This document shows positions 15,164 through 23,935 of a stretch of DNA of 35,836 nucleotides, in pieces. Location of the stretch: assembly GCF_020177335.1 (NCBI RefSeq), contig NZ_JAIVMG010000021.1, positions 1 through 35,836 on the forward strand, in the 5' to 3' direction. Numbering within the stretch: the stretch's first letter is position 1; each line of letters starts with the position of its first letter. The notes beneath the pieces were generated by a model, which was not told where the DNA came from, ran no database searches, and saw nothing but the letters and a program-made list of their open reading frames with translations. Source of the DNA: Stappia indica (GTDB lineage: Bacteria > Pseudomonadota > Alphaproteobacteria > Rhizobiales > Stappiaceae). The translations under genes and the position numbers were made by a program.

Positions 15164-17172
<2,009 letters not shown>

Positions 17173-18119: not shown

Positions 18120-18122
18120 GCC

Positions 18123-18161
18123 ATCCTGGCGGCCCCTCCCCGACAAAGGGGCCGCCAGGAT
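18123..18161 (+). terminator. Hairpin after lsrB (probable terminator)
   Basis: A perfect 14-bp GC-rich stem (18123-18136 with 18148-18161) with an 11-base loop begins four bases after the lsrB stop. There is no T-run after it, so it may act as an inefficient terminator or mRNA 3' stabiliser that insulates the sRNA genes downstream. Confidence 0.6.
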
Positions 18162-18232
18162 CGCCCGATTGGGCACGAATTGGCCTCATAGGGTCGCCGC
18201 TGCCCATTTCAATGGCAACGCCCCGCCAATTC

Positions 18233-18249
18233 TGCATAGCTGCAATGCA
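18233..18249 (+). promoter_or_regulatory. Candidate LsrB/VtlR operator upstream of sRNA 1
   Basis: TGCAT-N7-ATGCA, an interrupted dyad with T-N11-A spacings like those bound by LysR proteins, ends nine bases before the -35 box. The same element stands at the same place in unit 2. Assignment to LsrB is inferred from adjacency and from VtlR control of abcR2 in Brucella. Confidence 0.6.
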
Positions 18250-18258
18250 AAGGCGCTT

Positions 18259-18287
18259 CTTGCATAGGCGCGTTGTGCAGTGCATAT
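18259..18287 (+). promoter_or_regulatory. Promoter of sRNA 1
   Basis: CTTGCA (18259-18264), 17 bases, GCATAT (18282-18287). This is close to the alphaproteobacterial sigma-70 pattern CTTGAC-N17-CTATAT and is conserved exactly in unit 2. Transcription would begin near 18294. Confidence 0.75.
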
Positions 18288-18293
18288 AAGCAA

Positions 18294-18429
18294 CAGGCTG
18301 TTGGTTTGCTTCGTCGCTATCTCCTCCCAGCGACGTCTGATGCGACCAGCTGTTCCCTCTGGAAGGTGATTGCGCCACCTAGGTGGCAAAATCGAATAAC
18401 TGCCGGGCCACGTGCCCGGCATTTTTTTT
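18294..18429 (+). ncRNA. abcR1: AbcR-type trans-acting sRNA, copy 1
   Basis: The predicted transcript is about 136 nt. Hairpin 1 is a perfect 7-bp stem (CGTCGCT 18312-18318 with AGCGACG 18329-18335) presenting the loop ATCTCCTCCC. That loop is an unpaired anti-Shine-Dalgarno sequence like those AbcR sRNAs use to block ribosome sites of ABC-transporter mRNAs with Hfq. A small TTCC/GGAA hairpin with another CTCT loop follows (18353-18364), then a palindromic hairpin GCCACCTAGGTGGC (18374-18387). An A-rich single-stranded stretch (AAAATCGAATAA) suits Hfq, and the terminator ends the molecule. AbcR1/AbcR2 lie in tandem beside lsrB in Sinorhizobium and Agrobacterium, which matches this context. 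Exact ends and the copy numbering are assumed. Confidence 0.87.
18401..18429 (+). terminator. Rho-independent terminator of sRNA 1
   Basis: The 8-bp stem TGCCGGGC/GCCCGGCA (18401-18408, 18414-18421) with a 5-base loop is followed by eight T. Confidence 0.93.
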
Positions 18430-18509
18430 GCCCTCATGAGCTTGCAGGCAATCACCTTTCCGGCGACGCCGCCGAAAAACGCACCCCCCACTGGCGCCCC
18501 CTCCCATTT

Positions 18510-18526
18510 TGCATGGCTGCAATGCA
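18510..18526 (+). promoter_or_regulatory. Candidate LsrB/VtlR operator upstream of sRNA 2
   Basis: TGCAT-N7-ATGCA again, differing from copy 1 at a single spacer base and also ending nine bases before the -35 box, although flanking sequence has diverged. Preservation of both arms points to a functional site. Confidence 0.6.
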
Positions 18527-18535
18527 GCACTGCCT

Positions 18536-18564
18536 CTTGCATAGGCACGTTGTGCACTGCATAT
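18536..18564 (+). promoter_or_regulatory. Promoter of sRNA 2
   Basis: CTTGCA (18536-18541), 17 bases, GCATAT (18559-18564), identical in boxes and spacing to the promoter of copy 1. Start expected near 18571. Confidence 0.75.
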
Positions 18565-18570
18565 AAGCAA

Positions 18571-18706
18571 CAGGCTTCTGGTTTGCTTCGTCGCTATCTC
18601 CTCCCAGCGACGTCTGATGCGACCAGTTGTTCCCTCTGGAAGGTGATTGCGCCACTTAGGTGGCAAAATCGAATAACTGCCGGGCCCTGTGCCCGGCATT
18701 TTTTTT
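18571..18706 (+). ncRNA. abcR2: AbcR-type trans-acting sRNA, copy 2
   Basis: The predicted transcript is about 136 nt, same length as copy 1 and about 96% identical. The anti-Shine-Dalgarno hairpin and the TTCC/GGAA hairpin are unchanged. In the third hairpin a C to T change (GCCACTTAGGTGGC, 18651-18664) keeps pairing as G-U, and terminator-loop bases differ. Changes fall in loops, wobble positions or the 5' end, which supports selection on RNA structure. The second copy ends 24 bases before the end of the convergent msrP gene. Confidence 0.87.
18678..18706 (+). terminator. Rho-independent terminator of sRNA 2
   Basis: The same 8-bp stem as copy 1 (18678-18685 with 18691-18698) with loop CCTGT is followed by eight T. 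Confidence 0.93.
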
Positions 18707-18729
18707 GCCTCCTCGCGGACGGGCGCCCC

Positions 18730-19849: not shown

Positions 19850-21925
19850 TCAGGCAGCCTTGCGCCCATGGCGCGCCAACACCTGGTCGGCCGCCTTGCC
19901 GCCGAGCTCCGCCAGGTGATCGAACCGCTTGCTGTAGCTTGCCACGCCGGCGGTCGCCGAGCGCAGCTCGATGATCAACCCGCCGATTTCCGCTTCCGGC
20001 ATCATCGCCCGCACCTCGTCCCATCCGGGCCAGCCGGCGCGCGCATCGAAGCCGAGCAACTGGCCGCGCCGCGCCGAGACGATGCCGTTGATCCGGGCCG
20101 TTGCATCGCTCGGACAGAAGATCGTCACCTCATGCACCGGCTCCAGCAGCACCGGCTTGCACATGGGAAGCCCCTCGCGCATGGCCTGGATTGCCGCCAT
20201 GCGGAATGCCTGGTCGGAGGAATCGACGCTGTGGTAGGAGCCGTCTGTCAGGGTCACCGCCAGATCGACCGTGGGAAAGCCGAGGGTTCCCCGCTGCAGC
20301 GCTTCCTCAACACCGGCCCGCACCGCCGAAATATACTGTTTCGGCACCACACCGCCGGTGATCGTGTCGGTGAAGACGAACCCATCGCCCCGCCCGAGCG
20401 GCTGGATCTCCAGCGCCACATCGCCGAACTGGCCATGCCCGCCCGACTGCTTCTTGTAGCGGGAGCGCACCGCCGCCGTGGCGCGGATGGTCTCGCGATA
20501 AGGCACCGCCGGATCGCCGGTTTCCACCGACAGGCCGTATTTGCCCGTCAGCCGTTCCAAGGCAACACGCAGGTGCATCTCGCCCTGCCCCTCCACCAGC
20601 GTCTCTGTCATGTCCTGCAACTGGGTGACCACCAGCGACGGATCCTCCTCCACCAGCTTGGCCAGCGCGCTGGTCAGCTTGACCTCGTCCCGGCGCTCCT
20701 TCGGCCGCACCGCCAGCGCCAGCACCGGCTGCGCCGGCGCCAGGGGGGCCAGTTGCGGCGCCGGGTGCTCCAGCCCCAGGGTCTCCCCGGTCAGCACCCC
20801 TTCCAGCTTGCCAAGCGCGACAGTGTCGCCGACGCCCGCGCTCTCGCGCTTCAGCGCCTGCTGACCCATCACCGTGTAGAGACCAGACACCCGCGCCGGG
20901 CTGCCATCGGCACGCTGCAAGGTATCCGCATCGCCAACCGACCCGGCCAGCACCCGCGCCACCGACAGCTTGCCCGCATGCAGCGTGTGCACGGTCTTGA
21001 GGACCTGAAGCACCGTATCGCCACGCTCCTCCAGCCCGAGGCGGGCGGCGGTGGCGCCAATCCCCGGCGCCTCGTGGCGGATCGCCTTCAGCAAGCGGCC
21101 GATGCCATGGCCGTGTTCGGCCGATCCGAACAGGACCGGCAGGATCATGCCCTCGCGCATTTCCCCGGACAGATCCGCGAACACCCGCTCCCGGTCCGGC
21201 GCGGCATCCTCCAGAAGCGCCTCCATCAGCACATCGTCATGATCGGCCAGCGTTTCCAGCATGGAGAACCGCGCCTCGATCTCGCGCGCCACCTCCTCGC
21301 CGGGGATCTCGATCACCTCGCTTTCGGCCTGCTCGCGGTAGACATGCGCCCGCTCCAGCGCCAGGTCGATGTAGCCGGTGGCAACCCCCTCCGACCAGAT
21401 CGGGATCTGGCGCAGCACCAGCGGCACGCTGGAGGCCGGCTGCAGCATCTGCAGCACCTCGCGCATGCGCAAGGAAGCCTTGTCGATCTTGTTGAGGAAG
21501 AGAACATGCGGAATGCCCTGGTCCTCGAGCTGCTTCAGGATCACCTGCAGCGCCGCGACCTTCTTCTCATCCGCCTCGACGACGACGACGGCCAGGTCGA
21601 GACCCGGCAGAACGCCGGCGCTCTCGCCGAGAAAATCGACGGCGCCGGGGCAATCGAGAAAGGTGATCCTCTCCCCGAGATACTCCGCCTCGGCGATATT
21701 CACCTCAACGCTCATGGCATGGGCGCGCGCCTCCGGCGCCCCGTCGCCGACGGTGTTTCCCGCCGCGATCGTTCCCTGCCGCTGAATGGCCCCCGTGCGC
21801 GCCAGAAGCGCTTCGAGCAAGGTCGTCTTGCCGCTGCCGAACGGCCCGACGATGCCGATGCACCGGGGCCCCGTTTCCCTGCCGCCGTTGAAACCACCGC
21901 CTCCGGATCCGCTGTCCGCACCCAT
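19850..21925 (-). CDS. Elongation factor G-like GTPase (EF-G paralogue, FusA2 type)
   Basis: A 691-residue translational GTPase with the EF-G domain set. The G domain starts with GIVGPFGSGKTTLLEALL (P-loop near residue 30), switch II is DCPGAVDF and the specificity motif is NKID. Domain II, III and V and an EF-G domain IV (PYRETIRATAAVRSRYKKQSGGHGQFGDVALEIQP) follow. Canonical EF-G has DTPGHVDF; here the catalytic histidine position is alanine. This marks the EF-G-like paralogue group, whose role in translation is not defined, rather than the main elongation factor. ATG at 21925 with AAGGGAG is preferred; ATG 21949 and TTG 21952 lie upstream without ribosome sites. A signal-less cytoplasmic protein, possibly cotranscribed with msrP. 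Confidence 0.9.
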   Translation of the reverse strand: MGADSGSGGGGFNGGRETGPRCIGIVGPFGSGKTTLLEALLARTGAIQRQGTIAAGNTVGDGAPEARAHAMSVEVNIAEAEYLGERITFLDCPGAVDFLGESAGVLPGLDLAVVVVEADEKKVAALQVILKQLEDQGIPHVLFLNKIDKASLRMREVLQMLQPASSVPLVLRQIPIWSEGVATGYIDLALERAHVYREQAESEVIEIPGEEVAREIEARFSMLETLADHDDVLMEALLEDAAPDRERVFADLSGEMREGMILPVLFGSAEHGHGIGRLLKAIRHEAPGIGATAARLGLEERGDTVLQVLKTVHTLHAGKLSVARVLAGSVGDADTLQRADGSPARVSGLYTVMGQQALKRESAGVGDTVALGKLEGVLTGETLGLEHPAPQLAPLAPAQPVLALAVRPKERRDEVKLTSALAKLVEEDPSLVVTQLQDMTETLVEGQGEMHLRVALERLTGKYGLSVETGDPAVPYRETIRATAAVRSRYKKQSGGHGQFGDVALEIQPLGRGDGFVFTDTITGGVVPKQYISAVRAGVEEALQRGTLGFPTVDLAVTLTDGSYHSVDSSDQAFRMAAIQAMREGLPMCKPVLLEPVHEVTIFCPSDATARINGIVSARRGQLLGFDARAGWPGWDEVRAMMPEAEIGGLIIELRSATAGVASYSKRFDHLAELGGKAADQVLARHGRKAA

Positions 21926-22168
21926 GACCGCAACTCCCTTGCCTTGCATCAACAGGAGGGACCGGGCACGGCGGAACCAGACCGGGGCCGCGCGCGGCGC
22001 CCCCGCCCGCCGACGGCGAGCGGATGATCATGGTCGCGCCACTGGATCAGGGAACGCAAGGGAAACCGTTCCCGCAGCGCAGCACGAGCCCTGCGGCCAA
22101 GGCGCGCAGCCAAACGAAAAGGACCGCCCCGAGTGTGATGCCAAAGCCCTTTGTTTCGGAAGAAGGGG

Positions 22169-22475
22169 GCGTCCTCCCGGACGAAGCGCAGCGGAGATCC
22201 GGGATCGGCGAGGCACGGCCGCTCGGTTCCGGTCTCTTCAAAAAGCGCGTCTTCTGGCTCTCCGATCCCGGGTCGCGCCAGGGCTTGCCCGGGACGACGC
22301 CGAGAAATGGCGCAAGGGCTACTCTTCTCCCGACATTGCCCCACACTCCGCGTCTTCCCGGACGACGCGTACGCGGAGATCCGGGACCGGAGAGCCACGG
22401 TCTGCCGGTTTCAGACCCATGAAACGCACGGCTTTCGGTTCCCCGATCCCGGCTCGGGGGCCGGGATGACGCCGA
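22169..22475. repeat. Mosaic of four palindromic extragenic elements in alternating orientation
   Basis: Four elements share a TCCCGG...CCGGGA core: A 22176-22204 (forward), B 22266-22294 (inverse), C 22356-22386 (forward), D 22447-22466 (inverse). A and C share GCGTCYTCCCGGACGA and CGGAGATCCGGGA. B and D share the inverse GATCCCGG and CCGGGA-GACG ends. The base pair closing each core differs but stays paired (A-T, G-C, A-T, C-G). The A-B and C-D pairs, including their inner spacers, look like two diverged copies of one roughly 130-bp unit. This resembles the REP/BIME-like intergenic mosaics of enterobacteria and the palindromic elements of rhizobial genomes. Confidence 0.85.

Positions 22476-22693: not shown

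Positions 22694-23935
<1,242 letters not shown>

Follow-up and report, generated by a model that had tools for sequence, protein, structure and literature searches.

Tandem AbcR-like small RNA genes with putative LsrB boxes beside the gene for a cysteine-free LsrB in Stappia indica

Two predicted sRNA units lie in tandem downstream of trxB and lsrB

The window, i.e., the whole 35,836-nt stretch of Stappia indica DNA analyzed here, belongs to a genome of 4.66 Mb in 40 contigs. A trxB-like gene with a Pyr_redox_2 domain and a LysR-type regulator gene precede a pair of predicted sRNA genes (Table 1), in agreement with the position after trxB-lsrB given in the initial annotation. Each predicted unit is complete, as had been proposed, and contains the same 17-bp dyad, a CTTGCA-N17-GCATAT promoter, the CUCCUCCC loop, and a terminator with eight T. 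In both RNAs, CUCCUCCC lies in a hairpin loop, which is consistent with its designation as an anti-Shine-Dalgarno (anti-SD) loop. Both terminators consist of the stem TGCCGGGC-N5-GCCCGGCA followed by T8, and the U tract has an A/U-rich single strand in front, as in AbcR/alpha-r15 RNAs.

Table 1. Predicted features of the trxB-lsrB-sRNA locus (positions in the window)
Feature	Position	Strand	Basis or remark
trxB, thioredoxin reductase-like, upstream of lsrB	16207..17172	+	Pfam Pyr_redox_2, 4.3e-55
lsrB/vtlR orthologue, LysR-type regulator, 312-aa ORF, putative start codon	17181..18119	+	Pfam HTH_1 and LysR_substrate
Putative LsrB box, copy 1, TGCATAGCTGCAATGCA	18233..18249	+	Published consensus and position (PMC8844928)
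Promoter, copy 1, CTTGCA-N17-GCATAT	18259..18287	+	Kept in alignment of family loci
AbcR-like sRNA, copy 1	18294..18429	+	Ends inferred from promoter and terminator
Loop motif CTCCTCCCA, copy 1: anti-SD 1 and Brucella motif M1 (CUCCCA)	18321..18329	+	PMC8844928, PMC5461406
Motif M2 GUUCCC (anti-SD 2 region), copy 1	18352..18357	+	Family-locus alignment; PMC5461406
Intrinsic terminator with T8, copy 1	18401..18429	+	
Putative LsrB box, copy 2, TGCATGGCTGCAATGCA	18510..18526	+	Strict consensus at 18511-18523
Promoter, copy 2, CTTGCA-N17-GCATAT	18536..18564	+	
AbcR-like sRNA, copy 2	18571..18706	+	Predicted unit
Loop motif CTCCTCCCA, copy 2	18598..18606	+	
Motif M2 GUUCCC, copy 2	18629..18634	+	Predicted ~1 kcal/mol harder to open than in copy 1
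Intrinsic terminator with T8, copy 2	18678..18706	+	

The units form a 212-nt direct repeat (18221-18432 and 18498-18709; 92% identity, spacing 277). The RNAs, of about 136-137 nt, differ at exactly six positions (18300, 18301, 18350, 18379, 18410, and 18411), matching the "about six" counted initially, while the 73 nt upstream of the RNAs contain 12 differences. Of the placement described in the initial annotation, the changes at 18379 and 18410-18411 do fall in loops; the G-U wobble is only partly right, as 18301 turns a U-G pair into C-G, while 18300 and 18350 pair with each other in copy 1 and no longer do so in copy 2. The promoter hexamers and the motifs M1 and M2 are identical between the copies, and both have a strict LsrB box.

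Three further observations concern the surroundings of the RNAs. An 18-bp inverted repeat without a T run (18120-18164) directly follows the lsrB stop codon and might form the 3' end of the trxB-lsrB mRNA or affect its stability. The spacer contains GCAATCACCTT (18448-18458), whose 11 nt are fully complementary to AAGGTGATTGC, a sequence present in each RNA (18363-18373 and 18640-18650); the spacer element is also found, with one change, in S. taiwanensis, and it may reflect chance or be relevant in read-through transcripts. Imperfect repeats whose arms are partly inverted are spaced by ~181 nt at 22169-22456, between large ORFs at 19850-21952 and 22694-23914.

Both RNAs are related to AbcR through intermediate sequences

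AbcR1 and AbcR2 belong to the alpha-r15 family (PMC3712013). At gathering cut-offs, Rfam gave no match anywhere in the window, and ar15 (RF02345; cut-off 40 bits) was absent from it even at E values up to 10. Thus, a scan with the Rfam/alpha-r15 covariance model, the check named in the initial annotation, yielded no ar15 match in the window at any threshold used, and the sRNAs do not qualify as hits of RF02345 as thresholded (at least 40 bits). A missing covariance-model hit is one half of a refuting condition given there, which also calls for a lack of Hfq association. Across the order, ar15 matched 18 of 150 genomes, 5 of these above the cut-off. One of the weaker matches (29.5 bits, E 7.5e-4) is an orthologue in G016, a genome of the same family, and it coincides with the match of the window RNA itself, to which it is 80% identical.

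We built a covariance model, R1, from 19 of the 28 sequences in hand, omitting near-duplicates, G016, the sister genome G021, and G037. Copies 1 and 2, both of which are in R1, score 149.2 bits (E 3.1e-34) and 147.6 bits (E 7.8e-34), respectively. R1 detected all 24 ar15 loci when these loci (75 kb) were searched (E 4.9e-5 or better) and recovered 20 of the 24 at E 1e-3 in whole genomes with stricter filters. In total, 90 of 249 genomes of the order have R1 matches. Because ar15 misses the window RNAs, the homology to AbcR is shown through the intermediates R1 and G016.

Both copies contain CUCCUCCC, CUCCCA, and GUUCCC, motifs that are described in PMC8844928 and PMC5461406; M2 GUUCCC lies between stem-loops 1 and 2 in both and is predicted to be mostly paired. 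For a comparison outside the family, we used 38 loci, a set that takes in the 24 ar15 loci except for 5 duplicates, the G016 locus, and the second copy of the G047 tandem. GUUCCC is present in 38/38 of these loci, a count that is partly selection because the loci were found with models containing the motif, and CUCCCA is present in 10/38.

The LsrB search covered 51 of the R1-positive genomes, and all 51 have LsrB. In 38, the RNA follows lsrB on the same strand at a distance of 88-795 nt; in the remaining 13, it is far off on the same contig (8 genomes) or on another contig (5 genomes). Of 189 genomes of the class that lie outside the order, 5 gave weak R1 matches (28.7-31.6 bits). Thus, order-wide matches of ~28-32 bits are uncertain singly; they include G047, G109, G125, and G164, all beside lsrB. 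Among four outside-order loci checked, two are just downstream of LsrB without GUUCCC, and two have no LsrB nearby. The two loci beside LsrB (family f77) have CTCCCA and no GTTCCC, one of them has a strict LsrB box, and they are perhaps a diverged AbcR-like RNA.

Taken together, both targeting motifs, the reciprocal R1/ar15 matches, and the lsrB synteny bear out the AbcR-type identity proposed in the initial annotation, and we conclude that the two units are, by sequence, AbcR homologues. We also considered membership in NfeR1/ar14 and rejected it, based on scores of 16.2-16.6 bits against a cut-off of 58.8 bits and on one loop motif here; NfeR1/ar14 carries three anti-SD motifs (PMC8844928). 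Separately, copy 2 (18588-18706) resembles the anti-hemB RNA of Burkholderia (28.4 bits) in having the same loop/terminator layout, a likeness that is probably due to convergence.

The RNA structure is conserved in the family

The two RNAs have fold z-scores of −2.8 and −3.3. Using blastn, the RNA was found in 14/14 genomes of the genus (including its own), in 11/11 other genomes of the same family, and in 1/16 genomes from other families. We aligned 26 loci, one per genome, of which 25 are from the family and 1 is from another family. GTTCCC and the T run are present in 26/26 and CTCCTCC in 24/26. The second anti-SD motif (18352-18358 and 18629-18635) has three C in both copies here and in S. 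taiwanensis and four C in 22/26 loci.

RNAalifold, run on 19 sequences, predicted 26 pairs, of which 11 are changed on both sides. When 22 pairs were scored, i.e., omitting one 4-pair helix without a both-side change, 98.6% of the cells pair and 11/22 pairs have both-side changes; none of 500 shuffles reached 11, and slid controls gave 0-2. For the promoters, the E. coli-type rule of the tool found 0 sites (0.1 expected) and, therefore, the promoter call rests on conservation.

In each of the 10 Stappia RNAs that we folded, most of M2 is predicted to be paired (mean unpaired, 0.30-0.37). The predicted cost of opening M2 is 3.97 and 4.00 kcal/mol in the copy 2 RNAs of S. indica and S. taiwanensis and 2.86-2.97 kcal/mol in the two copy 1 RNAs and six single-copy Stappia RNAs. 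As modeled, this small energy difference would perhaps make copy 2 weaker through M2.

The pair most likely arose by a duplication within Stappia

A 25-mer of the sRNA occurs once in Stappia albiluteola and twice in S. taiwanensis CCM 7757. In the genus as a whole, S. indica and S. taiwanensis have two copies and the other 12 of 14 genomes a single copy, as determined by blastn with loci rechecked using R1; the 11 other genomes of the family each have one copy by blastn and one full-length R1 match per locus. Within S. indica, 18 of 211 sites distinguish copy 1 from copy 2, and within S. taiwanensis 17 do; orthologous copies of the two species have 5 differences each, and 12 positions split copy 1 from copy 2 in both species. 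In a tree that covers the Stappia copies, the two copy 1 sequences are joined (0.96), as are the two copy 2 sequences (0.97), while the clade of all four is weak (0.68). The four tandem copies share a one-base deletion, seen as a CCC run, that is absent in 12/12 single-copy genomes of the genus; the CCC run is also seen in two genomes of other genera. The lsrB region is 96.3% identical between S. indica and S. taiwanensis, and the regions of the other 12 genomes are 81-85% identical to that of S. indica.

Based on the tree, the shared copy-specific positions, and the lsrB-region identities, the duplication is most likely older than the separation of S. indica from S. taiwanensis and younger than that from the other Stappia. 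The recent duplication suggested in the initial annotation would accordingly be a tandem duplication in this lineage that is not private to S. indica, which shares the 12 copy-separating positions with S. taiwanensis. Gene conversion, offered there as an alternative, is not needed. The divergence between the copies is 0.043 for the RNA in S. indica, 0.029 for that in S. taiwanensis, and 0.156 upstream, so that the RNAs have diverged little relative to their upstream regions; of 31 comparable single-copy pairs, 4 have RNAs as alike as the S. indica pair, and the RNA divergence of the S. taiwanensis pair is below that of all 31 pairs of similar upstream divergence, so partial homogenization may have occurred. 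Sites 18379, 18410, and 18411 do not track copy identity, a pattern that could result from repeated mutation or limited conversion. In a plasmid collection, no record covers 80% of the trxB-lsrB query; among the 267 best places, 266 have 60-80% identity and one has 90-95%, and the matches were uninformative for the sRNA.

Both copies have a putative LsrB box

The LsrB box of the S. meliloti abcR1 promoter lies at −61 to −49 (PMC8844928). In copy 1, GCAT-N3-TG-N3-T occurs at 18234-18246, about −60 to −48, and both copies carry this published LsrB/VtlR box sequence ~60 nt before the predicted start. The seven fixed bases alone are weak evidence because the window contains two further matches to the strict box. 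With the full 17-mer, which is stronger evidence, only the two sRNA sites were found in the genome at up to 2 mismatches; at up to 3 mismatches, one other place (3 mismatches) was added, and the reversed control also gave one place. Among the 38 R1 loci outside the family, 28 have an upstream GCAT..TGC dyad, which is not part of the R1 model, versus 0.125 in shuffles, and 18 have an upstream strict box. Of the 26 aligned loci, 9 have a strict box where it is expected, and 11/12 single-copy genomes of the genus read GCAT-N3-AG where the consensus reads TG.

Genes for DUF1127 proteins are a target class of VtlR in Brucella. No strict box was detected near four DUF1127 genes of the genome, and the loose GCAT-N9-TGC pattern had 3 matches in two of these four loci and none in the other two. 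One DUF1127 match (G000:C3:129041-129647) is divergent to another LysR gene.

LsrB of S. indica has no cysteines

LsrB of A. tumefaciens is described as a thiol sensor with the pairs C144/C273 and C236/C244, and S. meliloti LsrB as having three cysteines that are needed for its function (PMC11975290). The 312-aa ORF here has no Cys and, because the protein is devoid of cysteine, the Agrobacterium thiol switch cannot be its input. A search of 150 genomes of the order found relatives of LsrB in 140. Among 66 distinct LsrB sequences, a nonrandom sample from loci selected by their similarity to the window or by an sRNA match, 36 are Cys-free and only one (G047) has Cys at both 148 and 277, positions taken as C144/C273 by a +4 offset rather than by alignment to the Agrobacterium protein. 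Within the genus, 5/14 genomes encode LsrB without Cys and 9/14 encode LsrB with a single Cys at position 226. From these sequences, we infer that an LsrB beside AbcR need not carry the C144/C273 switch.

Motif pairing with leaders of candidate target genes

The genome contains hfq (E 1.0e-31). In a pairing test with start codons chosen by rule, the motifs paired more strongly with 24 leaders of solute-binding-protein genes than with 29 LysR leaders (raw p values, 0.003 and 0.006). The LysR control represents 29 of 49 LysR matches (30 loci, with LsrB itself dropped). The raw gap was equaled by 9 and 25 of 300 shuffled motifs. When Shine-Dalgarno strength was allowed for, calculated with what we take to be the 16S 3' end, the gap was not significant (t −1.6 and −1.7; 78 and 42 of 300 shuffles).

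Proposed function and alternative explanations

Very probably, the locus encodes two trans-acting sRNAs of the AbcR family, tandem-duplicated, each with its own box, promoter, and terminator, that are activated by LsrB, depend on Hfq, and repress transporter mRNAs. The AbcR/ar15 homology, the conserved structure, the targeting motifs, the boxes, and the duplication pattern are demonstrated at the level of sequence; the regulatory steps are modeled on AbcR regulation as described in PMC8844928, PMC5461406, PMC7486931, and PMC3712013. By analogy with Sinorhizobium, Agrobacterium, and Brucella, the LsrB protein of the neighboring gene would bind the dyad and activate both copies, a sigma-70-type promoter would drive each sRNA, and the RNAs would bind Hfq. 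The CUCCUCCC loop and GUUCCC would then pair with ribosome-binding sites and cause repression, mainly of mRNAs that encode the solute-binding proteins of ABC transporters. Having two copies controlled by one activator would most likely raise or buffer the AbcR dose.

Alternatively, the two copies might be specialized instead of redundant, with copy 2 having drifted toward use of the loop motif M1 alone or with promoters that respond differently. Three fixed RNA differences (18300, 18301, and 18350) lie in one stem adjoining M2 in both species, M2 is predicted to be costlier to open in copy 2, and 9 of the 12 fixed copy differences sit upstream of the RNA. However, the promoter hexamers and both motifs are identical here, each copy has a strict box, and the energy gap is small and a prediction, so that we regard specialization as rather unlikely. 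An inheritance of the pair from the AbcR1/AbcR2 duplication of Rhizobiaceae, with one copy lost in other Stappia, would account for the same place, orientation, and tandem layout. It is nevertheless very unlikely, and the AbcR1/AbcR2 locus with which the initial annotation equated the position does not appear to be the source of the tandem: 12/14 genomes of the genus and 11/11 other genomes of the family have one copy, the four tandem copies cluster in the tree of Stappia copies, albeit weakly (0.68), and their CCC-run change is missing in 12/12 single-copy genomes of the genus.

The nature of the RNAs themselves leaves less room for other explanations. It is extremely unlikely that another family with an anti-SD loop (anti-hemB, NfeR1/ar14, or the 'CCUCCUCCC' RNA) landed beside lsrB: anti-hemB (RF02837) is the best sub-threshold Rfam match (E 1.5e-4) and ar14 (RF02344) is seen at E about 1, but both are far under their cut-offs (49.5 bits for anti-hemB), the anti-hemB alignment spans the loop hairpin and the terminator with 56 nt between them, and the reciprocal recovery of ar15 loci together with the lsrB synteny points to AbcR. 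Similarly, the covarying stems and the terminators and promoters kept across the family reduce to a negligible chance that the locus is a nontranscribed repeat or regulatory DNA only. We therefore retain a pair of AbcR-family sRNAs duplicated within Stappia as the preferred explanation.

With more doubt than belief, we raise a broader possibility, in which the LsrB-AbcR wiring is an order-wide ancestral module without thiol sensing and, at the same time, the independent Stappia pair is splitting its functions by a weakening of M2 in copy 2. The thiol-independent part follows from the observation that 65 of the 66 LsrB sequences, including the Cys-free one here, lack the C144/C273 pair. If true, the split in Stappia (weaker M2) would differ from the loss of M1 in Agrobacterium and the promoter change in Sinorhizobium.

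AbcR, its tandem form, its control by LsrB, and the shared gene neighborhood of AbcR1 among alphaproteobacteria are already known (PMC8844928). Apart from one paper in which both names occur once each, the entries listed by a literature search with many journals outside its coverage showed no description of AbcR in Stappia. What looks new is that the pair is apparently independent, that both copies have a strict box, and that LsrB is free of cysteine. The locus extends a well-studied regulator of rhizobia and Brucella to a genus in which the Rfam model fails to detect AbcR, and it would offer a second, natural instance of AbcR duplication whose two RNAs and LsrB boxes have remained nearly identical, beside an LsrB that has none of the cysteines to which redox sensing is ascribed. 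Thus, it makes testable why sibling sRNAs are kept and which signal LsrB originally read.

Comparison with known AbcR systems

The arrangement is most readily compared with S. meliloti, in which AbcR1 and AbcR2 are likewise encoded by tandem independent units beside lsrB and have the CUCCUCCC loop, a second anti-SD motif lies between stem-loops 1 and 2, and abcR1 has a box at the corresponding position (PMC8844928). The S. meliloti RNAs are shorter, at 121 and 114 nt versus ~136 nt here, their anti-SD 2 is UUCCCCUC where the Stappia pair has a run of three C, and their LsrB has three cysteines (PMC11975290) where that of S. indica has none. S. meliloti AbcR2 is driven by RpoH1, and no further conserved motif was detected in its promoter, whereas a strict box precedes both copies here. 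A. tumefaciens has the same order, trxB-vtlR-abcR1-abcR2, and VtlR directly activates abcR1 (PMC7486931); its AbcR2 is described as being without M1, a possible cause of its weak activity, whereas both copies here have M1 and M2. In Brucella abortus, M1 CUCCCA and M2 GUUCCC of AbcR1 and AbcR2 are identical to those found here (PMC5461406) and VtlR activates abcR2 (PMC7486931), but abcR1 and abcR2 are on different chromosomes (PMC4211561) and not in tandem.

Within the order, G047 also has two copies downstream of lsrB with dyads upstream of both. Its tandem RNAs score 127 and 119 bits with ar15 and are much diverged, with 26.0 and 29.9 bits with R1; only its copy 1 has a strict box, and its LsrB has Cys at 148, 248, and 277, unlike the Cys-free LsrB of S. 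indica. A third AbcR copy is located elsewhere in G047, and GCAT..TGC dyads are found upstream of all three.
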